Of a stretch of 23,384 nucleotides of DNA, positions 4,580 through 23,384 are shown piece after piece (position 1 is the stretch's first letter; each line of letters begins with the position of its first letter). The notes beneath the pieces were generated by a model. It was not told the origin of the DNA. It was given only the letters and a program-made list of their open reading frames with translations, and ran no database searches. Both the position numbers and the translations under genes were made by a program. Origin of the DNA: a virus; IMG/VR virus record IMGVR_UViG_3300010153_000123, positions 1-23,384 of that record. One strand, 5' to 3'.

Positions 4580-4855
4580 ATGCAAAAAATTATCCCATTA
4601 GGTAACAAGGTGTTAGTCAAGTTACATGAAAAAAAAGAGACATACGGTGATTCTGGTATATTTATACCTGACTCTGCACAGCAAGAACCTATGACGGCTG
4701 TAATAATGTCAGTAGGTGAAGAAGTAACAACAATGAAAGAAGGAGATAATGTCAGACTCAGTGAGTTTGGTACTCCAATGTCAATTGAATCTGAAGGTGT
4801 TACTTGTTTATTATTTAACTCACAAGATATTGTTGCTAAAGTAGTTGATGTATAA
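4580..4855 (+). CDS. groES: GroES-like co-chaperonin
   Basis: A 91-residue protein of the Cpn10/GroES family, slightly shorter than E. coli GroES. It starts with the typical strand IIPLGNKVLVK, then a mobile-loop region (about residues 19-35) carrying SGIFIP where GroES has GGIVL, then AVIMSVGEE, EGDNVRLSEFG and a C-terminal DIVAKV that all match conserved positions. GroES caps the GroEL ring. Phage versions such as T4 gp31 replace host GroES so that the major capsid protein can fold, and its position here, one gene before the terminase, fits that role. A TAACTTTA at 4560-4567 is one base off a TAnnTTTG box, so a private promoter is possible. It overlaps the terminase start by 8 bases. Confidence 0.9.
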   Translation: MQKIIPLGNKVLVKLHEKKETYGDSGIFIPDSAQQEPMTAVIMSVGEEVTTMKEGDNVRLSEFGTPMSIESEGVTCLLFNSQDIVAKVVDV

Positions 4856-10053: not shown

Positions 10054-11373
10054 ATGTCAGAAAAAATGGAACAAACAACGACAGTTCAAGAAGTAGATGT
10101 TAACCTAGATGAGATCTTTAGTGGAGCTCCTGGTGCAGGATCTGTTGTTACCCCTGAGAAAGAAACTAAAAAACCAAATGTATTTTCAAAAGCAGAGAAT
10201 GTAGATTTATCATTCCTAGATGATGGTAGTGTTAACGATTCAACAAAAGAAGAGAGTAAACAAGATGGAGAAGAAGTTACTGCTTCTTCAAATGAAGGTG
10301 CTAATGTTGATTCACCAGAAGTTACAGAAACACCAAAAGCAGCTGAGGGAGGAGATTCAGTCTCTAAAGATGAAGTAGATGAAATACTTAATGAAGGACT
10401 AGACTTAGCTGAATCAGAAGATGATAAATCTACTGCTAAAGGTAGAAAGAGAATTAGTGATATGGCTAGTGTCTTTGAGAAAATGATTGAGAATGAGGAA
10501 ATTATTCCTTTTGATGATGACAAACCATTGGAGGATTACTCAGCTAAGGATTGGAAAGAACTTATCCAAGCTAATATGAGTGAGAGAGCTAACAAGGTTA
10601 GACGAGAAACTCCTAAGCAATTTTTTAATAGTTTACCACAAGAATTACAAGTAGCTGCAAAATATGTAGCAGATGGTGGTACAGATTTAAAAGGATTATT
10701 TGGTGCATTAGCTCAAACAGAAGAAGTAAGAGCTCTGTCATTATCTGATGAAGATGGTCAAGCACATATTGTAAGAGAGTACCTAACTGCTACAGGATAT
10801 GGTTCTCCAGAAGATATTCAAGAAGAAATAGAAATTTGGAAGGATTTAGGCAAGCTTGAAAAACAAGCTTCTAAATTTAAACCAAAATTAGATAAGATGC
10901 AAGGGCAAGTTGTTGCAAGAAAATTACAACAACAAGAGCAAATGAAAGCTCAACAACAAAAAGCATCAGAAAATTACATGGCAAATGTATATCATACATT
11001 GAAGGATGGAAAGATTGGAGATATGAAAGTTAATAAAAAGACACAGTCTCTATTATATAATGGACTTGTTAATCCTTCATACCCATCTATAAATGGTCAG
11101 AGTACAAACTTATTAGGACACTTGTTAGAGAAGTATCAATTTGTTGAGCCAAACTATAACCTTGTTACTGAGGCGTTATGGTTATTAGCTGATCCAAAAG
11201 GATACAAATCACAATTGATGACAAAAGGTACTAACAAAGCGGTTGAACAAACAGTTAGAAAATTAAAGACTGCACAATCAACTAAGACAGCTAGTACAGG
11301 TGGAATACAAGAAGCTGCTCCAAGTAGAAAAAGAACTCTACCAAGAAATAACAATGTATTTAAAAGATTTTAA
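10054..11373 (+). CDS. Probable capsid scaffolding protein
   Basis: A 439-residue protein just upstream of the major capsid gene, the classic place of a scaffold. The first ~135 residues are acidic, rich in Ser, Thr, Glu and Asp, and probably disordered. A mixed helical region follows, then a Gln/Lys/Glu-rich coiled coil at about 275-310, a compact region at 310-395, and a basic tail ending RTLPRNNNVFKRF. Scaffolds often use a basic C-terminal helix to hold the capsid protein, which fits this layout. No protease motif is visible. The function is inferred from position and composition. An AAACCAAT element ends 5 bases before the ATG. Confidence 0.6.
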   Translation: MSEKMEQTTTVQEVDVNLDEIFSGAPGAGSVVTPEKETKKPNVFSKAENVDLSFLDDGSVNDSTKEESKQDGEEVTASSNEGANVDSPEVTETPKAAEGGDSVSKDEVDEILNEGLDLAESEDDKSTAKGRKRISDMASVFEKMIENEEIIPFDDDKPLEDYSAKDWKELIQANMSERANKVRRETPKQFFNSLPQELQVAAKYVADGGTDLKGLFGALAQTEEVRALSLSDEDGQAHIVREYLTATGYGSPEDIQEEIEIWKDLGKLEKQASKFKPKLDKMQGQVVARKLQQQEQMKAQQQKASENYMANVYHTLKDGKIGDMKVNKKTQSLLYNGLVNPSYPSINGQSTNLLGHLLEKYQFVEPNYNLVTEALWLLADPKGYKSQLMTKGTNKAVEQTVRKLKTAQSTKTASTGGIQEAAPSRKRTLPRNNNVFKRF

Positions 11374-11417
11374 AAATAGAACAACAACAATAATTATTAA
11401 TTAAAAAAAGTGAAAAA

Positions 11418-13046
11418 ATGGCAACACCGGTTTTAAACAACGGTCTCTTTTTAAGAGACACCTCATACTCGGCTAGTTCACATCTTGATTCATATCACTT
11501 AACACAAATGCTTGGTGACGCAGAACCAATGGACATGGGTCCAGTGGAGCTGTGGGCAATGACGCAAAAGGTAGAAATGCCTTTGTATCAGATGGCATCA
11601 TTTGGTGGTAAGAATACAATCATGGTGGACAATGCAAGAGGAGAGTACAAATGGCAAACTCCAATTTCTGAATCTTTACCAATGTCCCTAGGGATTGTAA
11701 CAGGTACAAGAGATGGAGATGGTGCTGATGGACAACCTTTCAAGATCAGATTATCTAAAAGAGAATTTGGTCATGGAGACATCATTACCTATGACAAGTA
11801 TAATGGTCTTGAATTCTACATTACTGCAGACGATATTGTTCCTGTAGGAGATGGATGGGTTTATACTGTTACTCTTGTAAATAATTCTAACGCTCAAGGT
11901 ATAGAAGTAAAATATCTTGCTGCTGGAACTAAATTCTTTAGAAAAGGTTCTGCAAGAGGTGAATACGGAGAAAGATTCTCTGATATTTCAACTGGAGCAG
12001 GATTCAGAGAATTCTATAACTTTGTTGGAGGAGCTGAAGCTCACGTACACTATTCAGTTTCATCACGTGCTGATCTTATGATCAAAGGTGGTATGAACGC
12101 TGATGGTACTGTACCTGTAACTGAGATTTGGAGAAACTTTGACAAGAACATTGATCCTTCTTTAGATTCTATTGAGTCTATTGCTGGCACAATGGGTAAA
12201 GACTATGTTAAAAAAGCATTTGATAATGGTACTCTTTCTAGAACGTTCTTAACTTCTATGGAAGCAGCACACCTTACTAAAATTGCAAATGACATTGAGA
12301 CTTACTTAATGTGGGGTCATGGTGGTAGAGTTAAGCAAGATGGACCAGATGATATTAGATTATCAGTTGGTTTATGGAGACAATTAGATAACTCTTTCAA
12401 ACGTGTATACAACAAGTCAGCATTTAGCTTAGATATGTTCAAGAATGAACTTTACAACTTCTACGCTGGAAAAGTTGAATTTGATGGTCCAGATCCAAAG
12501 AGACAATTAATTGTTCAAACTGGAATTGGAGGTATGCAGTTAGTAAATGCAGCTATTAGCGCTGAAGTAAATGGCGTTTCTGGTTCTAACGGAATGGTAA
12601 CAAATCTTGATAACATTGGTGCAATCACTGGAAAGGGAATGGACTTAGGTTACGGATTTGCTTACACAAGTTTTGTTATACCGTTCTTAGCAAACGTTAA
12701 GTTTGTATTGAACCCAGCATTTGATAACTTACACACTAATGACATTGAGAATCCATTAGTAGATGGTCGTCCATTATCTTCTTACAGCTTCATCATCTTT
12801 GATGTAACTGATGAAGGAAATGACAACATTTACTTATTGAAACTTTCTTGGGATAATGCTCTTAAGTGGTTCTACCAAAATGGTACTATGGACTACATGG
12901 GAAGATCACAAGGATTTGCTTCTTCAGGACACTTCAATGGTTATCGTGTAATGATGACTCAAACCATGCCGGCTGTATGGGTTAAGGACCCAACTAAGGT
13001 ACTTAAGATAGTTATGAGAAACCCAGTTACTGGAGGATCATTCTAA
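11418..13046 (+). CDS. Major capsid protein
   Basis: A 542-residue protein consistent with the HK97-fold major capsid protein of crAss-like phages, in which it builds the icosahedral shell. Supporting points are the order scaffold-capsid-terminator, the length near 500 residues, an N-terminal region without a signal peptide, many short beta strands with Gly and aromatic residues, a long helical region near 250-330 (the likely spine helix and neighbours), and a C-terminal VMRNPVTGGSF strand. Codon use looks richer in C-ending codons (TTC, AAC, TAC) than its neighbours, as expected for high expression. A strong intrinsic terminator follows 16 bases after the stop. No maturation cleavage site can be identified by eye. 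Confidence 0.82.
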   Translation: MATPVLNNGLFLRDTSYSASSHLDSYHLTQMLGDAEPMDMGPVELWAMTQKVEMPLYQMASFGGKNTIMVDNARGEYKWQTPISESLPMSLGIVTGTRDGDGADGQPFKIRLSKREFGHGDIITYDKYNGLEFYITADDIVPVGDGWVYTVTLVNNSNAQGIEVKYLAAGTKFFRKGSARGEYGERFSDISTGAGFREFYNFVGGAEAHVHYSVSSRADLMIKGGMNADGTVPVTEIWRNFDKNIDPSLDSIESIAGTMGKDYVKKAFDNGTLSRTFLTSMEAAHLTKIANDIETYLMWGHGGRVKQDGPDDIRLSVGLWRQLDNSFKRVYNKSAFSLDMFKNELYNFYAGKVEFDGPDPKRQLIVQTGIGGMQLVNAAISAEVNGVSGSNGMVTNLDNIGAITGKGMDLGYGFAYTSFVIPFLANVKFVLNPAFDNLHTNDIENPLVDGRPLSSYSFIIFDVTDEGNDNIYLLKLSWDNALKWFYQNGTMDYMGRSQGFASSGHFNGYRVMMTQTMPAVWVKDPTKVLKIVMRNPVTGGSF

Positions 13047-13062
13047 TCTTAATTAACAATAT

Positions 13063-13101
13063 GAAAGAAGGGGGAGCCTAGTGCTCCTCCCACTTTCTTT
13101 T
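13063..13101 (+). terminator. Intrinsic terminator after the major capsid gene
   Basis: A long hairpin has outer arms GAAAG (13063-13067) and CTTTC (13093-13097), a GC-rich inner stem (GGGGGAGC against GCTCCTCC) and a CTAGT loop, followed by TTTT at 13098-13101. It is much more GC-rich than the surrounding DNA. It lies right after the capsid stop and before the next gene. Confidence 0.85.
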
Positions 13102-13134
13102 AAACCAAAAATAATAACCAATAAAAATTGAAAA

Positions 13135-14148
13135 ATGGAAAACATTACAATAATTGAAAATACAACTGCAGTAAAGGATACTACAATTGCTATCCGTGCT
13201 TACTTTAATGCTGATTTAGATAATATGGGATTAGAGAAGTATAATATGTCACTACATGAAGGTGCATACCATAGTGAAAGTATTGCATGTTTAGAAAGAA
13301 ATGGAATAAAAAGATACCTCACAGGATTAAATGAATTTGCTCCTGAGATAAAGAAGTTACCTGAAGCACAAAAGAAAGCTAAGGTAAAACAAATCAGACA
13401 ACACGTAATTGACCTTGAGAAAGAATTAGCATCTAATGTTATTGATATTGATGATAAAGACTTTTGGAAGAAAGTTCAAGTAGTTAGACCTGATAATGAT
13501 GCATTTTGGAATAAGATAATTATAAAAGTAGGAAATGATCCTGTTTACTTAGACCCAAAGGTAGATGCATATGATAAGATTAAATTACTAGCTATTGAAG
13601 CTGGAGGTTTTTCTTTAGTTGCAGATAGCCTAGCTACTGCTAAAACAACTGGGAAATTTAAGTTCTACCTAGATAGAGTTTTACAAACTGCTGGTACAAG
13701 AACTAAAAATGCTAAGATTAAAAATAAAGCTCTTGGAATACTAAGTGAACTTTATGATGAAGATAAAACAAGATTAATGCATGTTGTTAAGACATTGACT
13801 TTCAATAGTTCACAGTATACTCACACTACTCCTATTGATGTATTATATGAAGATGCAGATGGATATATAAATGGTAACGGGAGAGAATCTGATGTAGCAA
13901 AAGCTTCTAAGAATTTTGTTGATGCTGCTAAACTTCCTACTGAAGATTTGTATATACACTCAATGATTAAAGATGCTCTAGCATTTAATATATTAACAAC
14001 TAAAGCTGATGGATATATCTATGAGAAGAAGTCAAGTAGTAAAATTGCTACAACAAAAGAAGGTGTAGCAGAGTTTCTTAAGAATCCAGAATATGATGAA
14101 ATGTTAATGGGTATTAAAACAGAAGTTGAATCAATGTTAAATAATTAA
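13135..14148 (+). CDS. Probable capsid-associated structural protein
   Basis: A 337-residue protein between the capsid and connector-like genes. It is mainly helical, lysine- and aspartate-rich, with no cysteine after residue 50. A helical segment at about 75-100 could form a coiled coil, a DFWKKVQVVRPDNDAFW stretch at about 104-120 follows, and the C-terminal third holds repeated Asp/Ala/Lys helices. I do not recognise the family. Position suggests an auxiliary capsid or head-completion protein. The leader between the terminator and the ATG holds two AACCAA elements (13102-13109 and 13116-13122). The stop is 2 bases before the next ATG, so the two genes are probably coupled. Confidence 0.65.
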   Translation: MENITIIENTTAVKDTTIAIRAYFNADLDNMGLEKYNMSLHEGAYHSESIACLERNGIKRYLTGLNEFAPEIKKLPEAQKKAKVKQIRQHVIDLEKELASNVIDIDDKDFWKKVQVVRPDNDAFWNKIIIKVGNDPVYLDPKVDAYDKIKLLAIEAGGFSLVADSLATAKTTGKFKFYLDRVLQTAGTRTKNAKIKNKALGILSELYDEDKTRLMHVVKTLTFNSSQYTHTTPIDVLYEDADGYINGNGRESDVAKASKNFVDAAKLPTEDLYIHSMIKDALAFNILTTKADGYIYEKKSSSKIATTKEGVAEFLKNPEYDEMLMGIKTEVESMLNN

Positions 14149-14150
14149 CA

Positions 14151-14855
14151 ATGAATAATACTACTCTACAAATAAAATTTAGACAGAGGCTTAACAAGCT
14201 TGCTAGTAATGACTATGATAATATAGAATGTTGGCAAATTGTTGAATCTTTTAATAAGGCACAGATAGAGTGGTGTAGAAGACAACTTCATGGTACTAAT
14301 CCAACAAGAACGTCTGATGAACAAACTAAGAGACGTATTGATGACTTACAAATACTATTAACAACACAACCAATTACAGGTTCAATACAAAGTGATTATT
14401 TTTTGGGAACAAACTTTCCAAATAATTACATGGAGTATAAAAGGGTTGATACAGATGCAACAACAGAATGTTGTGGTAAAGATCCTAGATCAATGACTGT
14501 TTATTTAGCTGAAGAAGCAAATGTAGATATGATTATGAGAGATCCTTTGAAAAGACCTGATTTTGAGTGGGGTGAAACTTTTTGTACTATGCAAAATAAT
14601 ACAATAAGGATTTATAAGAGAGAATTTGATGTAATTAATCCTAGGATAACATTTTATAGAAAACCTAGGTATATTGAAATTGAAGGTTGTTCTGATCCGT
14701 ATACTAATAATATTTCAGCAGCAGATATTGAATCTGAATTTAAAGATGACATTGTTGAAATAATGATTGATGAGGCTTGTGCAATTATAGCAGGAGACAT
14801 AAATGATGCTAATAATTACATAAGAGGACCACAACAGGCTGAAAAAAATAATTAA
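14151..14855 (+). CDS. Probable head-tail connector or ring protein
   Basis: A 234-residue protein that looks like a phage adaptor. The N-terminal part is helical with a basic patch, the middle holds a beta-rich segment with CTMQNNTIRIYKREFDV at about 144-160, and a C-terminal helical segment (DDIVEIMIDEACAIIAGDI) is typical of connector proteins that bind the portal ring. Cysteines occur at about 28, 43, 105-106 and later. Position after the capsid genes and before the tail genes supports a head-tail joining role. The start follows the previous stop by 2 bases. The assignment is inference from architecture and order. Confidence 0.55.
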   Translation: MNNTTLQIKFRQRLNKLASNDYDNIECWQIVESFNKAQIEWCRRQLHGTNPTRTSDEQTKRRIDDLQILLTTQPITGSIQSDYFLGTNFPNNYMEYKRVDTDATTECCGKDPRSMTVYLAEEANVDMIMRDPLKRPDFEWGETFCTMQNNTIRIYKREFDVINPRITFYRKPRYIEIEGCSDPYTNNISAADIESEFKDDIVEIMIDEACAIIAGDINDANNYIRGPQQAEKNN

Positions 14856-14904
14856 TATGTTGCTTATCTAGTAGAAAAGTATTATATTATAATGTAAACA
14901 GGGG

Positions 14905-14949
14905 TAGGAGTTCAGGTTTGGGTACTTCTATTCTGGTATAATAAACCCA
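14905..14949 (+). ncRNA. Possible RNA pseudoknot in a 5' leader
   Basis: In the 147-base gap before the 15003 gene, TAGGAGT (14905-14911) can pair with ACTTCTA (14924-14930), seven pairs with one G-U. The TGGGT at the 3' end of the loop (14919-14923) can pair with ACCCA (14945-14949). Together they form an H-type pseudoknot. The region is locally richer in G than its surroundings. No function is known; it could control translation or stability of the downstream structural gene. Confidence 0.3.
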
Positions 14950-14963
14950 TTCTTTTTGTAATT

Positions 14964-14993
14964 AAAAAAAGCCCTCTGAATACATAAAGAGGC
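14964..14993 (-). terminator. Hairpin that reads as a terminator on the - strand
   Basis: GCCCTCT (14971-14977) pairs with AGAGGC (14988-14993) around a ten-base loop, and an A run at 14964-14970 lies on its left side. On the - strand this is a short hairpin followed by seven T residues. No - strand gene exists nearby, so on the + strand it may instead be a leader hairpin that stabilises the mRNA 9 bases before the ATG at 15003. Confidence 0.4.
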
Positions 14994-15002
14994 ATTAGAA
15001 AA

Positions 15003-16199
15003 ATGAGTTATTTTAATCATGCTTATGTTAAAGCAGCTGTAATCAGCTCTTTAGAAGAAGTAAAAGATGTTGCAACTATTGACCTTGAAGCAGGTGAATT
15101 AGGAGTAGTAGATGCAACAACCTACGTAACAGTAGATTGGCCGGCAGCGGCAGCAGGTGTTCCTGCAGAAACTTTACTTGTTTTTGGTAATTATAATCAG
15201 GTAGACACACTTGATGGTAAGGCTACAAAGTCTTCACACGGTGGTTACTCTGAATCTATCAAAACAAAAATGATCAAGCCACATTACGTAAACAAATTGT
15301 GGAAATCAGAGTGTGTAGCTGTTGAAGCTCAATACATTGAAATTACAATTCCTGATGGATGTTTTCTGTGTGATGGATCTACAGCTGCTTCAAATCAATT
15401 AAGAATTGATATTAAAGGTGATGAAGCATTACGTTACTTAAACAGATTCTCTTATGTTACTTTAGACTATAGAGAGTGTTGTGCTCAAGGTACAGAAGTT
15501 ACTGGTGCAACTGTTGTATCTGCATGGGTAGATAGAATCAATGAAGATCCTTTATTGAATCCATTTATTACTGCATCTGCAGTATCTGGTGGTTCAACTA
15601 ATAACAGATTAAAGTTAGTTATTGACTATACTGCAACTTTCTTTGATAACTGTTCATTTGATACTAGAGACTGGCATGCAACTGCTCCTTTATCAGCAAT
15701 TGTTTCTCCAGTTGATGATGATGGCGATGCTTGTAATGATACATGTATGACTGCTGCTGTATCTGGTGTAGCTGTTGCGGAATTTGGTAAATATTCTGCA
15801 TATGCAGTTTCTACTAAAGCTGAAACTACAGGTGAAACAGTAATTGATGAAATCATTCTTGAAGGTAGATACAGACAAGATGGTGGATGGAATCAAGGTA
15901 ATAAAGATTCTGCACGTTTTAGAGAAATCCAACACGGAGATGCATTACTTGGTTGTGGTACTGGAGCAGTAGATAGAACAGCATTCTATGCTTGTTACTA
16001 CTTACAACACTCAGTTCCTAGATTTAACAATCCAACTGGAGTATTTGATAATGATCAGTATTTATATAAGTTCTACTTACCTTGTACAGTTAAGAATGAC
16101 AAAGGTGAGGCTGTAACAAATCCTGATTTAGCTAAGATGGATGCTATGATGGGTTATTTTGCTACAGCAGCTGGTATCACATTTACAACTGGGTACTAA
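15003..16199 (+). CDS. Abundant-looking virion structural protein
   Basis: A 398-residue protein in the tail region. It is rich in Ala, Gly, Val and Thr, with alternating beta strands and few long helices, and a dozen or so cysteines, including a CFLC cluster at about 120-123, CC at 160-161 and C-x3-C near 239-243. It looks like a tail tube, sheath-like or surface-decoration protein, but no motif decides among these. Codon use with frequent TAC, AAC and GTA, its own long leader and a strong terminator after it all suggest high expression, as for a major virion component. The ATG follows a leader with two predicted RNA structures. Confidence 0.5.
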   Translation: MSYFNHAYVKAAVISSLEEVKDVATIDLEAGELGVVDATTYVTVDWPAAAAGVPAETLLVFGNYNQVDTLDGKATKSSHGGYSESIKTKMIKPHYVNKLWKSECVAVEAQYIEITIPDGCFLCDGSTAASNQLRIDIKGDEALRYLNRFSYVTLDYRECCAQGTEVTGATVVSAWVDRINEDPLLNPFITASAVSGGSTNNRLKLVIDYTATFFDNCSFDTRDWHATAPLSAIVSPVDDDGDACNDTCMTAAVSGVAVAEFGKYSAYAVSTKAETTGETVIDEIILEGRYRQDGGWNQGNKDSARFREIQHGDALLGCGTGAVDRTAFYACYYLQHSVPRFNNPTGVFDNDQYLYKFYLPCTVKNDKGEAVTNPDLAKMDAMMGYFATAAGITFTTGY

Positions 16200-16324: not shown

Positions 16325-16870
16325 ATGGCCGCTAAACACATACTAAGCTTAGAAGTTTTACCTGTATCTAATACTGAAGTATTTAGTGTTAAAGATACAA
16401 GTACCTATGCTAAAAATTTAAAAATTGATTGTCCAGAATTGTTAATTACTGTACCTGGATTTAATCAACCAGCATTAATAAAAGTTACTGAAAATTTTGA
16501 TCTTACAATAAATGCTTGTGCATTAAATGTACAAACAACAAATTGTAATAATACACGTGTCATGATTCCTGATGGTTTATATATTATCAGGTATCAAGTT
16601 AGTCCTCATGATAAAGCATATGTTGAGTATAATCACTTAAGAGTTACAAACTTAATGAAACAATATTATGATAAGTTATGTCAACTAGATATTACCCCAT
16701 GTGTACCAAATTCAGAAAGGAAACAATTATTAAGTGATTTAAATGATATTAGAATGTATATTGATGCTGCTGTAGCAAAAGTAGAATATGCAGCAAATCC
16801 TAGTGCAGGTTTAGAATTATTTAATTTTGCTAAGAAACTATTAGGTAAAATTACCTGTCCCACATGTTAA
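16325..16870 (+). CDS. Beta-rich tail protein with helical C-terminus
   Basis: A 181-residue protein not assigned to a named family. Residues 1-105 are beta-rich with a conserved-looking strand MIPDGLYIIRYQVSP (about 80-94) followed by YVEYNHLRVT. The C-terminal part is helical (about 105-172) and ends in CPTC, a possible metal-binding or disulfide pair. There are cysteines at several other sites, including about 38, 59, 66 and 119. It opens the Cys-rich block that includes the giant adhesin, so it probably belongs to the tail or to attachment of the adhesin. It has its own promoter candidate and follows a terminator, so it starts a new unit. Confidence 0.6.
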   Translation: MAAKHILSLEVLPVSNTEVFSVKDTSTYAKNLKIDCPELLITVPGFNQPALIKVTENFDLTINACALNVQTTNCNNTRVMIPDGLYIIRYQVSPHDKAYVEYNHLRVTNLMKQYYDKLCQLDITPCVPNSERKQLLSDLNDIRMYIDAAVAKVEYAANPSAGLELFNFAKKLLGKITCPTC

Positions 16871-16895: not shown

Positions 16896-17036
16896 ATGGC
16901 ACAAAATTGTTCACATTGCAAAAGACCAATAGGATGCGGTTGTCAAAAGACAACAGCAAGTAACAAACAAATTATTCACAAGGGTTGTAAACCAGCATAT
17001 GAAGCTGCACTTGCTGCAGGAATAGTTAAGAAATAA
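16896..17036 (+). CDS. 46-residue Cys-rich small protein
   Basis: A short gene that is easy to overlook. The peptide has C5-x2-C8, C14-x-C16 and C31, which suggests a small zinc knuckle or a disulfide-linked domain, followed by a short Ala-rich helix ending in two Lys. Two AACCAAT elements (16869-16876 and 16877-16883) lie ahead of its ATG, as for other genes with real leaders. The stop is 2 bases before the ATG of the giant adhesin, so the two are tightly coupled. It could be an assembly partner of the adhesin. Confidence 0.6.
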   Translation: MAQNCSHCKRPIGCGCQKTTASNKQIIHKGCKPAYEAALAAGIVKK

Positions 17037-17038
17037 GA

Positions 17039-20000
17039 ATGGAACCAAAGAAAGACAATATTATACAGAAGATCAATACTGAACGTGGTTTTGCTGATGA
17101 GATATTTAAGAAGTATAGATTTGATAGATATGGGATTGGGTCATGTTGTGGCTCAAACCTCCCTTCTTATATAAAGGATAAATATCTTTGTGATTATCAG
17201 GATAATAAAATATCACAGTATGATAATGTTGAGGTAGTAAAAACCTCTTATGTTCCACCAGAAGGAGGGGCTTCAGAAGATCTAGAAAGACCTGCTTGGG
17301 TTGATCAATATTGTGGAGATGTACAAGGAGATGTAGATATATACTTCTACTATGATGCAACATCATTAGGATTAGGAGCTGTTATGAATGCATATAATGC
17401 CAGTTCTGAATGGGTAGGAATTATTAGATCTGGGAATTTAGATGCACCTTCTGGTTCTTGTGCAGGTGGAGAAGCAGTTGGTATAAATGAATATCATACA
17501 GCAATATTTGGAGAAAGATGGCTTGATTGGGCTACATCTGCAATGACCGGTACATATCAGAATGCTGGTAGTTGTGGTGGTAATGGTACACCAATGGCTA
17601 ATGGAAATCCATGTACAACAGGACAACCTGTAGATGCAGATCCAAATCCCCTAAGAAATTTTGGTATAAATGATTGTGGTAGTGTTGCAGATTCAGCTTT
17701 TCCAGAAACTGTTCAAGCAAATAATAAATTTTGGAGTATTCTTAATTGGGCACAATCTACTGGAGTAACTATGTATAATGCAGGGATTCCAGGTGCAACA
17801 GTTGCAAACAGTTGTATTACTGATAATTCTGGAGGAATTTTTAGTAGTGTAGTTACAATTGGACCACCTCCGTCAGCTACAAATAAAAACTTATTGGTTG
17901 TTGTATTTGCTGATGAATCAACATCATCAACTCATAAACAACCTTATCATGATCTAGGTCCAACTGTTAGTTGGAATACTGCAACAGATGGTACTGGTAC
18001 AATGACACCATGTTGGGGTGCTGACCATGCTGAATTTATTGCACAAAGAGCTGTCTGGATGAATGCACAACCAGGAAGACAATCAGACTTCTTTCTATAT
18101 CCTTCTAATCCAGCAGGTGGACCTGGTAATGGACAATTACCTTTCCCATTACATTCATTAGGTGCAGTATCCAGTGGAGATAAACCATCTGCACTTGCTA
18201 GTGCTACAATAACATTTACAGGAAATCCAGTAGATGGTGAGTTCTTAACAATACAATCAACGGCCTTTCCAGGACTTGGATTAACATTAACATATTTTGC
18301 TGATGCAGCAACTGATTTAAACACAAGAAAATTTAATAGTTCAGGTACACCATCTGATATTGCAACTGAATTAAAAGCATGTATTGAATATATGCAACCA
18401 TATGGACATGGAGGTGATATAACTGTAACACAGAATGGAGGAACCTTAACTCTTACACAAATAACTGACACCTCACATGGTGATACAACAATCATAACTG
18501 ATTTAACTAATGCTACAGTGCCTGCTGCATTTTCTGGAGGATTTCCAGATGGTATGTTTAATACAATACCTTTCTGTTCTATAGCATCAATGAATCCTAT
18601 TGGTACATCAAATCCTTACTTTGCACAAAAATCTGGAGCTCTTGACCAACATGGCTGGGGTGTTGATCCTGCAATGTTGTCTTTCCAGTCAAGCACATTC
18701 CAAGAGGATCTAACTGAATTTACTAACTTAACAACTTGTAATGACTCAGAATGTTTTCTATTTGTTGTTAAAAATCAAAACGGTGATCCAGTAGAAGGAC
18801 ACCCAATAATAATGCAAGGTGGTATAATAGGATATACTGATGAGAATGGTTTACTTAGATGGTGTGTGGAAGATGCTTCTGTAAATACACATCATGTATT
18901 AGACTTATGTACATGTCTTTCAACAACAGGAGGGTGTGCATCACAAAAAGTATCAATAACATTAACAGATAGCAGTCTTACCTCATGTCCTACAACACCT
19001 TTTCAAGCATGTGATCCTGATGCAGAAGAACAATCATCTGGTAATGAAAATGAAGGTTGTACAGATCCGGCTGCAGATAATTATGATCCAAATGCAGGTG
19101 TAGATGATGGATCATGTACATATTGTCAATCCTTTACTATAGCAGAGATCAGTAGAACTGATGCTACTGAAACAGCAGGAGGTGTATGTAATGATGATGG
19201 GGCTATTGACATAACAGTAAATGGTGGAACAGCTCCTTATACTTATTATTGGACTGGACCAGGTGGATTTACAGCAACAACACAAGATATATCAGGCTTA
19301 TGTGGTGGTCAATATACAGTAATGGTAACGGATAGTTCAACCCCAAGTCCGTGTGTAGAAACAGAAGTTTTCCTTATAAATCAACCTAATGCAATTGTAT
19401 ATGGTTGTACAAATGCAGAAGCATGTAATTATGATGCTTCAGCGAATATGGATGATGGATCCTGTTTATTTGATGGATGTACTGATATATCAGCAACAAA
19501 TTATAATGCAAGTGCTACAGCAGATTGTAATTGTAATGGAGTAGGTACTGCTCAATATCAAAATCTTGTTGGATGGGATAGTTGTTGTACAGGATGTGTA
19601 GATGGTTGTATGGATCCATTAGCAAATAATTATGATGCTGCAGCTACTTGTGATGATGGAAGTTGTACATATAATTGGAACTGTATAGAAACAACTACAA
19701 CAGGTGGATCAGAACAACAAATATCTTGTCCTACACAAACATACGTTGGAACATTTGGTGTAGCAGCTCAAACATATGCTGAAGCTCAAGAAGTCTTCTT
19801 AGATTATATTGGTGATCCTGGAAATGGTCTTGATAATACTGATATACCATCAATGAAATGGTCATCTATCTGCCTTGCACCTGTTGGTACTAATGGTTGT
19901 ACAGATACTGTAGCTAATAATGGTGGAACTATGCACATAGTATCAGGTATTTCTATGGGTTATTTTAACAATGATTGGCCTAGTGTTACATGTGGATGTT

Positions 20001-22774
20001 CAACTACTAACTGTTGGCCATCAGGATGGACATGGACACCTAATATTAATGGATGGTCTCATCATCATACTGGTACATGGCTTGAGTGGGTAGCTTTATT
20101 AAACTCAACTATAGCTGATGGTCAAACTTGGGTAGATCAGAATGGAGGTGGAGTAGCAACATTTACCGGTCTATTATATACAGAAATTAGAGCTATTATA
20201 AGTGCATCTCAAGGTAGTTGTGCCAGTCAAAATGGAGCTCCTCTAACAAACTTACTTTTCCCTGAATGTTGTGGCCTTTTAAATACTTTTAACGAAAATA
20301 CTGAAGGTATTGGATATTGTTCATGTGAACTAGGTACTATAACTGAATGTAACTGTACAGAAATGACTGATGGTTCGGGTATATACCCAACTGAAGATGA
20401 TTGTTTAAATGCTGCAGAAAGTTGTTGTAATAACCCTGGTCCTGACAATTACACTTGTATACCAGGAACTTTTACTAATAGTTGTTCAAATAAAACTGAA
20501 GCTAATCCAGGTACATCTTTACCATATAGCATGGATATTGATATAGTTATTGCTGATGAATGGACATTAACCTTTTCATCAAATACAAATCCTATTGATT
20601 ATTATTGGAATGTAATGACAGCAGGATCTAACATAGTTGCGGGTGGTTGTTATGATCCTAATACAGGAACTTCACTATATTATCTCAAATCAATAACCTT
20701 TGAAAGAGAAGGAGTATTAGTTGTTGAAATAGATGATGCAGTTTCACCTGTAGATTCTTGGGGTACTTTTTTAGGTGATTTAGCTACAACATATGGATAC
20801 GATGGTACAACTTACCCATCCGTAGCTGGTATGACATACACACAAGTAGTAGTTCAATTAGCAACTTCTGAACCAGGAATCTGGAGTTCATTACCTATTA
20901 TAGCTATATGTAATTGTAACCCAAGTAATAATTGTGATTGTATATCAGATCCTAATGGTCTCTATACAGATTATACAACTTGTTATGGTGATTGTTGTCC
21001 TTTATTATATTATGGATGTACAGACCCAAGTGCATTTAATTTTAGTTCAGTAGCTAATGCTGATCAAGGAGGTTGTTTATATTGTGAAGATGGTACTTTT
21101 AACTTAACACCTGCTGGAGATATTACAATAACAACTACTGATCCAACATCAAATGGTGCAACAGATGGATCAATAACTATTACTTTTAATTCACTTAATG
21201 CATATTATACTCCAACTCCTGGAGCAACAACTCCTGCAGGAGGAACTGTGATAACATTATATGATGCTACAACAGGTAATCAAATAGGTGTTCCTTGGAT
21301 GCCAGGAGGAGGTGTTAATGCAGCTACTTATGCTGTAATGACTTTTGAAAATCCTGATTATCAAATTGGTTATGGAACATATATAATAACTATAGAAGAA
21401 GTCCACGTATACAATGGTATAACTTATGTAGTTTGTAATGATACATTTACTGTAAATGATCTTGCAGGTTCTGGAACATCATTATGGGAATGTCAACCTG
21501 GAACATTTCTTGATGAATCATTAGTAACACCTGGTGTAACATTAGATTCAGTACTTCAAAATACTACTGGCGTATATGTAAATGTAGCTCAATTAAATGC
21601 AGGTAATACAAATGGTCTTGGATATTATGCAACTTATTCAGATGCAATAGATGATTGGAATTGGTCTTCCATTTATCAAAATCCTATAGGTTGGACTTGG
21701 CCTTGGTGGTACCAAGTTAACGCTACAGCACCTACAACAACAGGTGATGTTCAATGTCAAAGTGATAGTACAAATGCATATAAAACATCCTTCCTAAAAA
21801 TAGAATATAAAAATACTAATACTGGTGTAGTAATGTATACATGTGATGACAACACCCCTTGGCCTGATTTAGTTAGTTTTGTTGAAGGAAACATAGGTAG
21901 TACTTTTGCTCCAAATGTTAAGTTTAGCGTACTAAGAGCTGCTATAATAGCAAATGATCCTAATGAAGATTTAGTAGTAGATTTAAAAGCTGTTATTTGT
22001 GATTCAATTAATTGTGAGTGTGTACAATCACCAACAGGAACGTATACTAATGAAGTAGCTTGTAATCAAGACTGTTGTACAAATGGTTGTACAGACCCTG
22101 CAGCTGATAACTATTATGCTAATGCTATTTGGGATGATGGTAACTGTATTTACTGCAGTACATTTTCAAACATAGTTACAATTACTGATCCAACTTCACC
22201 TCCTGGAGCAACAAATTGGAATGCTGGTAATATAAACGTTAACAACGGAGCAATCAATGCTACAGGTATTGGAGGTTCTGGTAACTATAGTTATACCGTT
22301 GCTTTTGCAGGATACAATAGTAATCAATTTGTTAATCCAAATGCACTATGGCCTGGTTTTTATGAAGTTGTAGTTACTGATGATACTTTGGGTTGTTCAG
22401 TTACAACTTATCATCAGTTAAGTCCATTATATACTAAGTGTCATGATAATGGTACTCCTTGGTTACCAAACAGTCAATCACAATGGATGAGTACAGGTGG
22501 TGTTTATAATTATTTAATTATTGATAATGCACCTAATGGTAATACTACAAGTAATGTTTATGCTTCTAATGGAGATACAATAAATATTGCTAACCTACTT
22601 GGTACCTATCTTTCTATTGATATATATGATAGCAGTGGTACTCAAGTTGCAGGAGTAACTAATACATCTAGCTTCTCATGGATTGGTGCAACACCAGGTG
22701 ATACATATTATATTGAAATAAAACAAGCTACCGATTGTGCATACGTTGGAGTTATATTTACAATGCCAGTATAA
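17039..22774 (+). CDS. Giant Cys-rich modular adhesin / tail protein
   Basis: A 1,911-residue protein, the largest in the window. It has no signal peptide, so it is probably a virion part rather than a secreted protein. In order: an N-terminal region (1-95) with an SCCG motif; a vWA-like segment with DIYFYYDATS at 100-109 and LLVVVFADES at 285-294; a carboxypeptidase-regulatory-like beta domain at about 572-612 (NGDPVEGHP, YTDENG); six GCTDP...DDGSC-type motifs; SprB-like beta repeats at about 700-785 and 1707-1797 and a looser one near 1350-1478; three divergent ~190-260 residue modules; and a beta-rich C-terminal domain. SprB repeats are known from the gliding adhesin of Flavobacteriia. It probably binds the host surface. 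It starts 2 bases after the 46-residue gene. Confidence 0.75.
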   Translation: MEPKKDNIIQKINTERGFADEIFKKYRFDRYGIGSCCGSNLPSYIKDKYLCDYQDNKISQYDNVEVVKTSYVPPEGGASEDLERPAWVDQYCGDVQGDVDIYFYYDATSLGLGAVMNAYNASSEWVGIIRSGNLDAPSGSCAGGEAVGINEYHTAIFGERWLDWATSAMTGTYQNAGSCGGNGTPMANGNPCTTGQPVDADPNPLRNFGINDCGSVADSAFPETVQANNKFWSILNWAQSTGVTMYNAGIPGATVANSCITDNSGGIFSSVVTIGPPPSATNKNLLVVVFADESTSSTHKQPYHDLGPTVSWNTATDGTGTMTPCWGADHAEFIAQRAVWMNAQPGRQSDFFLYPSNPAGGPGNGQLPFPLHSLGAVSSGDKPSALASATITFTGNPVDGEFLTIQSTAFPGLGLTLTYFADAATDLNTRKFNSSGTPSDIATELKACIEYMQPYGHGGDITVTQNGGTLTLTQITDTSHGDTTIITDLTNATVPAAFSGGFPDGMFNTIPFCSIASMNPIGTSNPYFAQKSGALDQHGWGVDPAMLSFQSSTFQEDLTEFTNLTTCNDSECFLFVVKNQNGDPVEGHPIIMQGGIIGYTDENGLLRWCVEDASVNTHHVLDLCTCLSTTGGCASQKVSITLTDSSLTSCPTTPFQACDPDAEEQSSGNENEGCTDPAADNYDPNAGVDDGSCTYCQSFTIAEISRTDATETAGGVCNDDGAIDITVNGGTAPYTYYWTGPGGFTATTQDISGLCGGQYTVMVTDSSTPSPCVETEVFLINQPNAIVYGCTNAEACNYDASANMDDGSCLFDGCTDISATNYNASATADCNCNGVGTAQYQNLVGWDSCCTGCVDGCMDPLANNYDAAATCDDGSCTYNWNCIETTTTGGSEQQISCPTQTYVGTFGVAAQTYAEAQEVFLDYIGDPGNGLDNTDIPSMKWSSICLAPVGTNGCTDTVANNGGTMHIVSGISMGYFNNDWPSVTCGCSTTNCWPSGWTWTPNINGWSHHHTGTWLEWVALLNSTIADGQTWVDQNGGGVATFTGLLYTEIRAIISASQGSCASQNGAPLTNLLFPECCGLLNTFNENTEGIGYCSCELGTITECNCTEMTDGSGIYPTEDDCLNAAESCCNNPGPDNYTCIPGTFTNSCSNKTEANPGTSLPYSMDIDIVIADEWTLTFSSNTNPIDYYWNVMTAGSNIVAGGCYDPNTGTSLYYLKSITFEREGVLVVEIDDAVSPVDSWGTFLGDLATTYGYDGTTYPSVAGMTYTQVVVQLATSEPGIWSSLPIIAICNCNPSNNCDCISDPNGLYTDYTTCYGDCCPLLYYGCTDPSAFNFSSVANADQGGCLYCEDGTFNLTPAGDITITTTDPTSNGATDGSITITFNSLNAYYTPTPGATTPAGGTVITLYDATTGNQIGVPWMPGGGVNAATYAVMTFENPDYQIGYGTYIITIEEVHVYNGITYVVCNDTFTVNDLAGSGTSLWECQPGTFLDESLVTPGVTLDSVLQNTTGVYVNVAQLNAGNTNGLGYYATYSDAIDDWNWSSIYQNPIGWTWPWWYQVNATAPTTTGDVQCQSDSTNAYKTSFLKIEYKNTNTGVVMYTCDDNTPWPDLVSFVEGNIGSTFAPNVKFSVLRAAIIANDPNEDLVVDLKAVICDSINCECVQSPTGTYTNEVACNQDCCTNGCTDPAADNYYANAIWDDGNCIYCSTFSNIVTITDPTSPPGATNWNAGNINVNNGAINATGIGGSGNYSYTVAFAGYNSNQFVNPNALWPGFYEVVVTDDTLGCSVTTYHQLSPLYTKCHDNGTPWLPNSQSQWMSTGGVYNYLIIDNAPNGNTTSNVYASNGDTINIANLLGTYLSIDIYDSSGTQVAGVTNTSSFSWIGATPGDTYYIEIKQATDCAYVGVIFTMPV
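19055..19126 (+). repeat. DDGSC motif 1 of the adhesin
   Basis: Encodes residues 673-696, starting GCTDPAADNYDP and ending DDGSCTYC. It is the cleanest copy and marks the border between the N-terminal domains and the first SprB-like repeat. Confidence 0.8.
19136..19399 (+). repeat. SprB-like beta repeat in the adhesin
   Basis: Residues about 700-787 read as a SprB-type repeat: a DGAIDITVNGGTAPYTYYW strand pair, then a loop with TTQDISGL, then GGQYTVMVTD, and a final conserved Cys. This is the typical G-x-Y-T-V-x-V-x-D ending of the Bacteroidota family. Confidence 0.65.
19403..19672 (+). repeat. DDGSC motifs 2, 3 and 4 in a cluster
   Basis: Motif 2 spans 19403-19471 (GCTNAEACNYD to DDGSC). 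Motif 3 follows directly at 19475-19540 and is degenerate: the DDGSC end is replaced by DCNCNG. After a short Cys-rich linker, motif 4 spans 19604-19672 (GCMDPLANNYD to DDGSC). Confidence 0.75.
19673..20446 (+). repeat. Adhesin large module, copy A
   Basis: Residues 879-1136. It begins WNCIE, holds a W-x2-W-x-x-L-x-x helical motif (WLEWVALLN) and an LLYTEIRAII segment, and closes with C-x-C (1104-1106), GIYPTEDDC and CC. The same order of marks is seen in copies B and C. Confidence 0.45.
20447..21013 (+). repeat. Adhesin large module, copy B
   Basis: Residues 1137-1325. It begins YTCIPGTF, has SWGTFLGDL and MTYTQVVVQL at the places of the copy A helices, and closes with CDC (1299-1301), GLYTDYTTC and CC right before DDGSC-type motif 5. 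Confidence 0.5.
21014..21085 (+). repeat. DDGSC motif 5, degenerate
   Basis: Residues 1326-1349, GCTDPSAFNF to DQGGCLYC; the DDGSC end has become DQGGC. Confidence 0.7.
21482..22084 (+). repeat. Adhesin large module, copy C
   Basis: Residues 1482-1682. It begins WECQPGTF, has WPDLVSFVEGN and FSVLRAAII at the equivalent places, and closes with CEC, GTYTNEVAC and CC before DDGSC motif 6. Copies B and C share the C-x-P-GTF opening and the same ending. Confidence 0.5.
22085..22156 (+). repeat. DDGSC motif 6 of the adhesin
   Basis: Residues 1683-1706, starting GCTDPAADNYY and ending DDGNCIYC. Its first nine residues are identical to motif 1, 3 kb away. Confidence 0.75.
22157..22431 (+). repeat. 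Second SprB-like beta repeat
   Basis: Residues about 1707-1797: NNGAINATGIGGSGNYSYTV, then a loop, then WPGFYEVVVTDDTLGCSV, ending with QLSPL. It follows the SprB pattern (GxGxYxY, GxYxVxVxDxxxC). Confidence 0.55.
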
Positions 22775-22836: not shown

Positions 22837-23384
22837 ATGATACCAACTAATTCAAATAACCCAAACAATTGTGATCCAATTTCATCCAATTGTGTAGTAT
22901 GGCAAGGACCAGACCTGGCATGTGTAGATGTATGTCAAGGAGATAGCATAAGTGATGTAGTAGCAGCACTATGTACACAACTTATTCTTTTAGAAACACT
23001 TATTGGAACAGGTAATACTGAGTTCAATATTGCTAATATTAATCAGTCAGAGTTAACAGGATCTACAGCAACTAATTTAGAGGAGCTAATTCAGTTAATG
23101 ATTGATAATATAGTTATTAATCAAGGAGGACAAGGTACAGGTACAGGAACAGGTGACCATGGAAAACATATGGATTGTGATGATGTAATGGCTTGTTCTG
23201 TTACAGGAATGCCTCCATGTTTTGAAGAACTTGTTGGTTTTTCTAATGGAGAAAGTTTAACAAGATGGTTATCTGCTGTTGCACAAGAACTTTGTGATTT
23301 ACAAACTTCTGGAGGAACAACACAAGCAGTAACTACTGAATTAGCAGCTAAGGTAGCAAATTTAGAAACACAACCAGTTGGAGA
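22837..23384 (+). CDS. Fibre-like tail protein, 5' part only
   Basis: The frame from the ATG at 22837 stays open to the right edge, 182 codons, so the gene is truncated by the window. The N-terminus is rich in Asn, Pro, Cys and Ser. Two similar helical units are visible: GDSISDVVAALCTQL near residues 35-49 and GESLTRWLSAVAQEL near 138-152. A Gly/Thr-rich linker (about 115-126) and a Cys-containing segment (CDDVMACSVTGMPPC) lie between them. Such repeated short helices with Gly-rich linkers suit a trimeric fibre or collar protein. It probably belongs to the tail with the giant adhesin. Confidence 0.6.
   Translation, partial: MIPTNSNNPNNCDPISSNCVVWQGPDLACVDVCQGDSISDVVAALCTQLILLETLIGTGNTEFNIANINQSELTGSTATNLEELIQLMIDNIVINQGGQGTGTGTGDHGKHMDCDDVMACSVTGMPPCFEELVGFSNGESLTRWLSAVAQELCDLQTSGGTTQAVTTELAAKVANLETQPVG

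Follow-up and report, generated by a model that had tools for sequence, protein, structure and literature searches.

Gene order in the window

The window, by which we mean the whole stretch of 23,384 nt analyzed here, covers part of the genome of a marine crAss-like phage related to the crAss phages of the gut; all window coordinates given below are on the + strand. Genes for the large terminase (TerL; phrog_6681, E 2.3e-65), the portal (phrog_6547, E 5.8e-95), the crassvirus major capsid protein (MCP; 11418-13046; PF23898, E 9.5e-30, and phrog_11589) and ring proteins lie 5' of a giant gene at 17039-22774. An HU-like protein of 124 aa is encoded 5' of the packaging genes (2524-2898; PF18289, E 1.7e-6), and a GroES-like co-chaperonin just 5' of the large terminase (4580-4855; PF00166, E 8.8e-16). 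Promoter and terminator scans of the region gave results at chance level.

Profile comparison with crAss001 returned gp33 as the best partner of a 337-aa gene and R4/R5 as that of the 234-aa ring/adaptor protein (14151-14855; phrog_29507, E 1.8e-7; a match to the ring protein of phage csAssE-Sib), the latter at low probability yet over 205 aligned columns. Directly upstream of the giant gene are a conserved 181-aa gene (16325-16870), 95% identical in the related locus L005, and a 46-aa Cys-rich, zinc-ribbon-like mini-ORF (16896-17036; MAQNCSHCKRPIGCGCQKT...) that ends 2 nt before it. The next gene of the slot exits the window, leaving its start (22837-23382), and is 380 aa long in L005. The window ends before the genes further 3', which in L005 encode an fn3 protein and homologs of R2 (223 aa; hhalign probability 95%), R1 (300 aa; hhalign probability 86%) and the muzzle protein (a 1,953-aa ORF; 34% in profile comparison). 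The C-terminal stretch of this muzzle-like protein of L005, at a contig end (L014:16757-17125; VDIVIAVDSSNS...), reads like a von Willebrand A domain and looks similar to aa 85-380 of the giant protein; Pfam gave no match to it.

The giant gene occupies a conserved virion-gene slot flanked by R4/R5-like and R2-like genes, and the crassvirus MCP, the portal and TerL, together with ring-protein genes colinear with those of crAss001, identify a Crassvirales virion block. Since the MCP itself scores just 31% against the crAss001 MCP by profile comparison, the gene order is more telling than the individual scores. At this place crAss001 encodes AUX, THA and THB, and the hub there is the docking place of the fiber gp22 (PMC10172136); given the matching gene order, the slot corresponds to the position of AUX, THA and THB in crAss001. 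Profile comparison of the 181-aa and 380-aa neighbors with THA, THB and gp22 gave no match, so that a candidate assignment of the 181-aa protein as a THA/THB homolog was rejected, and the 398-aa gene gave no convincing match to AUX; placement at the collar is thus read from gene order. The preliminary description had spoken of a tail block; the gene does lie within the virion block, and "tail" is a reading of its position. The same block is found in Cellulophaga phage phi17:2, Leptolyngbya phage Lbo-JY46 and phage csAssE-Sib; in csAssE-Sib, genes for collagen, pentaxin and carbohydrate-binding proteins stand further along it.

Modular architecture of the giant protein

The reading frame is open over 1,911 codons from an ATG start, in agreement with the 1,911-residue protein first described. 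With the giant protein as query, IMG/VR yielded homologs in L003, L004 and L005 (54-59% identity in the best segments), and further relatives there were reached through its modules and neighboring genes; among 50,697 named phage records there was no match at E 1e-5. Whole-protein Pfam and PHROG scans gave nothing: hmmscan of the whole protein missed SprB, which a scan of a 230-aa segment recovered at 32 bits. The proposed check against the Pfam SprB profile (PF13573) proved positive, with a match at 19187-19264 (residues ~717-742; 34.9 bits, E 3.9e-10) above the curated cut-off of 28. Pfam scans of the whole protein and of segments found no recognized carbohydrate-binding or receptor-binding family, and Pfam scans of the protein found no BACON domain and no pb10-type or other known capsid-binding domain.

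The repeats were mapped with two profiles of cellular origin, both excluding the window: a full-length SprB profile based on nine repeats that all come from a single flavobacterial locus, and a DDGSC profile for which 218 distinct units of 21 aa were used (the search pattern admitted 21-27 aa, and no unit longer than 21 aa was seen). Together they recognize six DDGSC units, one of them shortened, and one strong and one weaker SprB repeat, whereas 20 shuffles of the giant protein gave zero matches to either profile.

At its N terminus the protein has an anchor (aa 1-60; 17039-17218), defined in a 20-sequence alignment by the motif ..E..FAD..FK..R..RYG...CC....K..LCD..D. An alpha/beta domain follows (aa 85-380; 17291-18178), to which Pfam and PDB sequence searches gave no match; strands alternate with helices in its model, which is of low confidence (the N-terminal part is poorly modeled, with a mean pLDDT of 48.6). 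The strand-helix order of this domain and a DxTS motif brought up von Willebrand A as a candidate, which Pfam, PDB sequence and fold searches left unsupported. A beta-rich insert delimited by alignment (aa 383-500; 18185-18538) is optional, being present in the window, L116, L194 and L195 and absent from L187/L005, L188, L191 and L193/L003. Next comes an Ig-like core (aa 561-650; 18719-18988), phage-specific, with invariant C/T/G/H residues in a 19-sequence alignment and weak similarity to MG4, Big_1 and CarboxypepD_reg.

Beyond the core, DDGSC unit 1 (aa 673-693; 19055-19117; 35.6 bits) precedes SprB repeat 1 (aa 718-788; 19190-19402; 63.6 bits, E 4e-20), for which the model gives a confident Ig/PKD-like fold (pLDDT about 90). 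Unit 2 (aa 789-809; 19403-19465; 28.5 bits), the shortened unit 3 (aa 813-829; 19475-19525; 19.0 bits) and unit 4 (aa 856-876; 19604-19666; 36.6 bits) lead to distal domain X1 (aa 881-1130; 19679-20428), which has a Cys-rich end and is 53% identical to its L187 counterpart. Distal domains X2 (aa 1141-1320; 20459-20998) and X3 (aa 1485-1680; 21491-22078) are paralogous (24% identity over 165 aa, E 8e-11 without composition correction), with unit 5 (aa 1326-1346; 21014-21076; 18.6 bits) between them and unit 6 (aa 1683-1703; 22085-22147; 23.1 bits) after X3. Also between X2 and X3, PF13573 matches weakly at aa 1363-1391 (21125-21211; E 4.6e-4, below the cut-off), and the full-length SprB profile lends no support to a repeat there. 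Toward the C terminus, SprB-type domain 2 (aa 1735-1789; 22241-22405; 18.4 bits, E 5e-6) looks by eye like the GGSxNYxxxV...NPFGL variant that cellular proteins of L018 and L042 have. The anchor, the Ig-like core, the alpha/beta domain and the ~200-aa distal domains had no cellular match in this analysis.

The SprB-like repeats of the preliminary description are thus upheld, one at strong and one at weaker score. Its six GCTDP...DDGSC motifs exist as a family of six units, of which the first alone has the literal string; units 2-6 read GCTN...DDGSC, GCTD...DCNC, GCM...DDGSC, GCTDP...DQGGC and GCTDP...DDGNC. A solved structure for the unit is provided by residues 328-353 of perforin-2 (MPEG1; PDB 6u2j), which match it at E 8e-4; perforin-2 is a eukaryotic immune protein and beyond the DDGSC unit shows no likeness to the giant protein.

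Short and extended forms in related phages

The relatives examined were loci in which the 181-aa upstream gene or the ring gene is present. Among 42 non-identical core proteins the anchor was detected in 41, the remaining one being cut by a contig end, and the common plan of the slot protein is the phage-specific anchor plus the Ig-like core. Short forms, which stop no more than 30 residues past the core (190-695 aa), account for 19 of the 42; in 14 extended forms the core is followed after 20-24 aa by DDGSC and after a further 14-27 aa by SprB. The arm after the core is ~1,250 aa long in the window's clade, opening with DDGSC and then SprB. In L127, L128, L176, L208 and L210 more sequence lies ahead of the anchor, an N-terminal extension that has DDGSC units of its own, so that the anchor is not necessarily N-terminal; these slot proteins are 2,119-3,249 aa long and have DDGSC both before the anchor and after the core. 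In L135/L206 separate genes, in different frames and with a 10-nt overlap, encode the core and the DDGSC arm (L206:10675-11247 and 11238-15241), a split that is either natural or due to a one-base assembly error.

In the tree built from the 181-aa protein, one clade contains almost all DDGSC arms, and a second, smaller gain is seen in L122 and L133. The mini-ORF is present in 17 of 19 testable DDGSC-arm loci, the split one included, and in one of the other loci; among slot genes with a fused DDGSC arm it lies upstream of 16 of 19, and of two further genes, and it is absent from 17 of the 19 short forms; on the same tree its distribution reads as a single clade-level gain. Repeated co-gain of mini-ORF and DDGSC arm was considered and rejected, the association being confined to one clade.

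In short-form genomes the next gene of the slot encodes 1,170-1,466 aa (e.g., L220:12468-16439), against 380 aa in L005, and some of these proteins combine collagen repeats with a conserved region at the C terminus (TDITVFIDTN...). From this difference, the two slot genes seem to trade length.

A role outside the virion, for example at the infected-cell surface or in lysis, has in its favor the very high Cys content (84 Cys). Against it stand the conserved anchor, the position in the virion block and the clade-wide short forms at the same position; moreover, the N terminus (MEPKKDNIIQKINTERGFAD) is charged and, by inspection, has no hydrophobic core and no evident signal peptide, and searches that found the T9SS sorting domain in the flavobacterial protein of L016 gave no match to a type A or type B C-terminal sorting domain in the giant protein. 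We regard a non-virion protein as very improbable.

Identity falls from the anchor to the C terminus

Compared with the nearest relative, the anchor is 88% identical, the core 80% and the SprB cassette 72%, while the X domains reach 43-53%, the distal arm 43-61% and the C terminus 44%. Neighboring genes are mostly at 87-96% (MCP 96%, ring protein 95%, 181-aa gene 95%), the 398-aa neighbor also being fairly divergent at 74%. Fast divergence is typical of receptor-binding parts, and the conserved virion-proximal end, the variable distal end and the occurrence of short and extended forms follow the pattern of receptor-binding and tail-fiber proteins. Because identity falls from the anchor to the C terminus and most neighbors stay steady, we take the protein to be a virion appendage. 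The host-type DDGSC-SprB cassette is among the better-conserved parts of the arm, and so may be a spacer rather than the tip.

Cellular counterparts and origin of the DDGSC-SprB composite

When genomes were scanned with the DDGSC-SprB segment, 50 loci were obtained; almost all belong to Flavobacteriales or other Bacteroidota, and one is from a Marine Group III archaeon. In 14 cellular proteins SprB follows within 60 aa of DDGSC, often through a phage-like DDGSCTYC linker, and in the cellular Flavobacteriales proteins it follows after 9-30 aa. Such proteins, like SprB itself secreted through the T9SS (e.g., that of L016), share the order DDGSC then SprB and a similar linker with the giant protein; they carry T9SS sorting domains (PF18962/TIGR04183) and, by inspection, a signal peptide, often with many SprB repeats, whereas the giant protein lacks a sorting domain and contains just one or two SprB repeats. 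The L016 protein (1,373 aa) combines an M12-type metallopeptidase with a T9SS sorting domain and has nine stretches that pass the SprB cut-off, against the one strong and one weaker repeat of the phage protein. Four such genomes (1.7-2.0 Mb) have 60-144 SprB matches each, compared with 0 in 14 control genomes.

The Ig-like core is distributed differently. It matches phage records at E about 1e-35 or better, and the full domain is missing from 296 Flavobacteriales genomes, two of which have half-domain matches at E about 1e-5; this difference between a phage-specific core and a host-type cassette supports acquisition. Host to phage is the direction we infer for the transfer, on the breadth of the two distributions; a FastTree phylogeny of 63 SprB domains (~75 aa) groups the window family together (support 0.82) and does not settle direction. 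Leaving aside the family of the window itself, the nearest sequence by BLAST is cellular, that of L016 (54%).

Inheritance of the SprB-type Ig domain from other phages, with the likeness to host adhesins reflecting deep shared ancestry and not capture, has to be set against this. Phage decoration proteins do contain a homologous domain, T5-type pb10 matches PF13573 at 26.2 bits, just under the cut-off, and DDGSC is present in cyanophage virion proteins. Yet the flavobacterial SprB profile gives the window domain 63.6 bits and the T5-type domain 19.3 bits, the joint DDGSC-SprB order and linker are shared with cellular proteins, and the nearest BLAST sequence outside the family is cellular; on balance we think a purely phage ancestry improbable. 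Capture of host modules, as originally suggested, fits the presence of the composite in secreted Flavobacteriales proteins, some of them T9SS-sorted, but a protein "built from" such modules is an overstatement, because only ~250 of 1,911 residues (~13%) are DDGSC or SprB. Secreted adhesins of the host are the probable source of the DDGSC-SprB composite, which one phage clade would then have kept, and the phage binding arm seems to be constructed partly of host-type pieces.

Relationship to known virion proteins

In the PDB the SprB region matches T5 pb10, a neck-whisker protein and another decoration protein (E about 1e-6). Fold searches with the model returned the N4 and Moo19 capsid reconstructions, the Aureispira grappling-hook protein and PKD domains, and in BFVD the top entry is a crassvirus muzzle protein of Virus NIOZ-UU157, with a long but poorly superposed alignment; two phage proteins named SprB repeat are also listed there. 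T5 pb10, N4 gp17-type and Hoc proteins share with the giant protein a homologous, virion-exposed Ig-like domain, but are much smaller, have capsid-binding domains of their own, lack DDGSC and are encoded at another genome position.

A general attachment role has been proposed for Hoc and BACON proteins, and the giant protein could likewise be a head decoration or head-fiber protein that attaches virions to particles, mucus and polysaccharide generally instead of an infection receptor. The kinship of its SprB region with the T5 pb10, N4-type and Hoc-type decoration Ig domains agrees with this, as does the existence of head fibers in crAss001, which are described as Ig-like (PMC10172136, PMC10136315), and the adhesion of gut phages to epithelium through Ig/BACON/PKD proteins (PMC13370021). 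The slot, however, is flanked by ring-protein genes and does not adjoin the MCP gene, Pfam scans found no known capsid-binding domain, and the steep distal divergence suits a host-matched function; a head protein of this general kind thus appears rather unlikely.

DDGSC units also occur, one to three per protein, in cyanophage virion proteins encoded among tail-fiber genes (Synechococcus phage S-H9-2; Marine virus AG-345-P14); these come from a different phage family, are about 475-514 aa long and have no SprB match, anchor or core. Many other viral contigs, some with a crass-type MCP or portal, encode large DDGSC proteins, and in L070, L071, L074, L087 and L096 viral contigs have DDGSC proteins of 2,529-3,119 aa, some beside virion structural genes. 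The closest parallel in kind is offered by the BACON tail proteins of crAssphage and its gut relatives, likewise Bacteroidota-type Ig-like repeats tied to tail genes, for which host-surface or mucus binding and gain by transfer and duplication have been proposed (PMC6949934, PMC10136315, PMC13370021). The giant protein differs from them in its SprB and DDGSC modules, its marine clade and its distinct base of anchor and Ig-like core.

In the literature searched we found no paper on SprB in crass-like phages, which is not proof of absence, and a literature search for the string DDGSC gave chance matches only. The preliminary description was not aware of a described phage protein with this mix; the BFVD "SprB repeat" proteins, the T5 pb10 and N4 decoration proteins, the cyanophage DDGSC proteins and the BACON adhesins (PMC6949934, PMC13370021) are nevertheless precedents. 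Host-type Ig modules in crAss-like tail proteins are already known through BACON (PMC6949934, PMC10136315, PMC13370021), and what is new here is the module type, the marine clade, the anchor, core and arm anatomy, and the series from short to extended forms.

Proposed role and implications

The reading we favor, with moderate confidence, is that the giant protein forms a long appendage, probably a spike or fiber, on the particle of this marine phage and binds the surface of a Flavobacteriales host, its presence and location in the virion, binding activity and target all being predicted. The appendage would most likely be a tail-collar fiber, possibly a head fiber. The N-terminal anchor (aa 1-60) would dock on the particle, the Ig-like core (aa 561-650) would form a conserved shaft base common to the short versions, and the region 660-1911 would be the outward arm. 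Within the arm, the SprB-type Ig domains may act as stiffening and spacing units and the DDGSC Cys/Asp units as linkers or knots, with the ~200-aa X domains and the C terminus as the putative contact-making parts.

A bolder version, to which we give little credence, has the arm mimicking the secreted adhesins of the host, binding their sugars or partners and gathering on the same surfaces or adhesin layer, with the 46-aa protein as a dedicated folding or assembly partner; if true, such mimicry would explain how phages concentrate near their hosts in dilute water.

As a virion appendage, the giant protein extends to the sea, with a different host-type module, the idea developed for BACON proteins in gut crAss-like phages. 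The slot offers a before-and-after series, a short anchor and core in many genomes and an added arm of ~1,250 aa in one clade, which opens the acquisition of surface-binding modules by phages to test. With profiles of the anchor and core, binding proteins can be sought by sequence across a large marine clade that is uncultured, and Flavobacteriales are indicated as its hosts.
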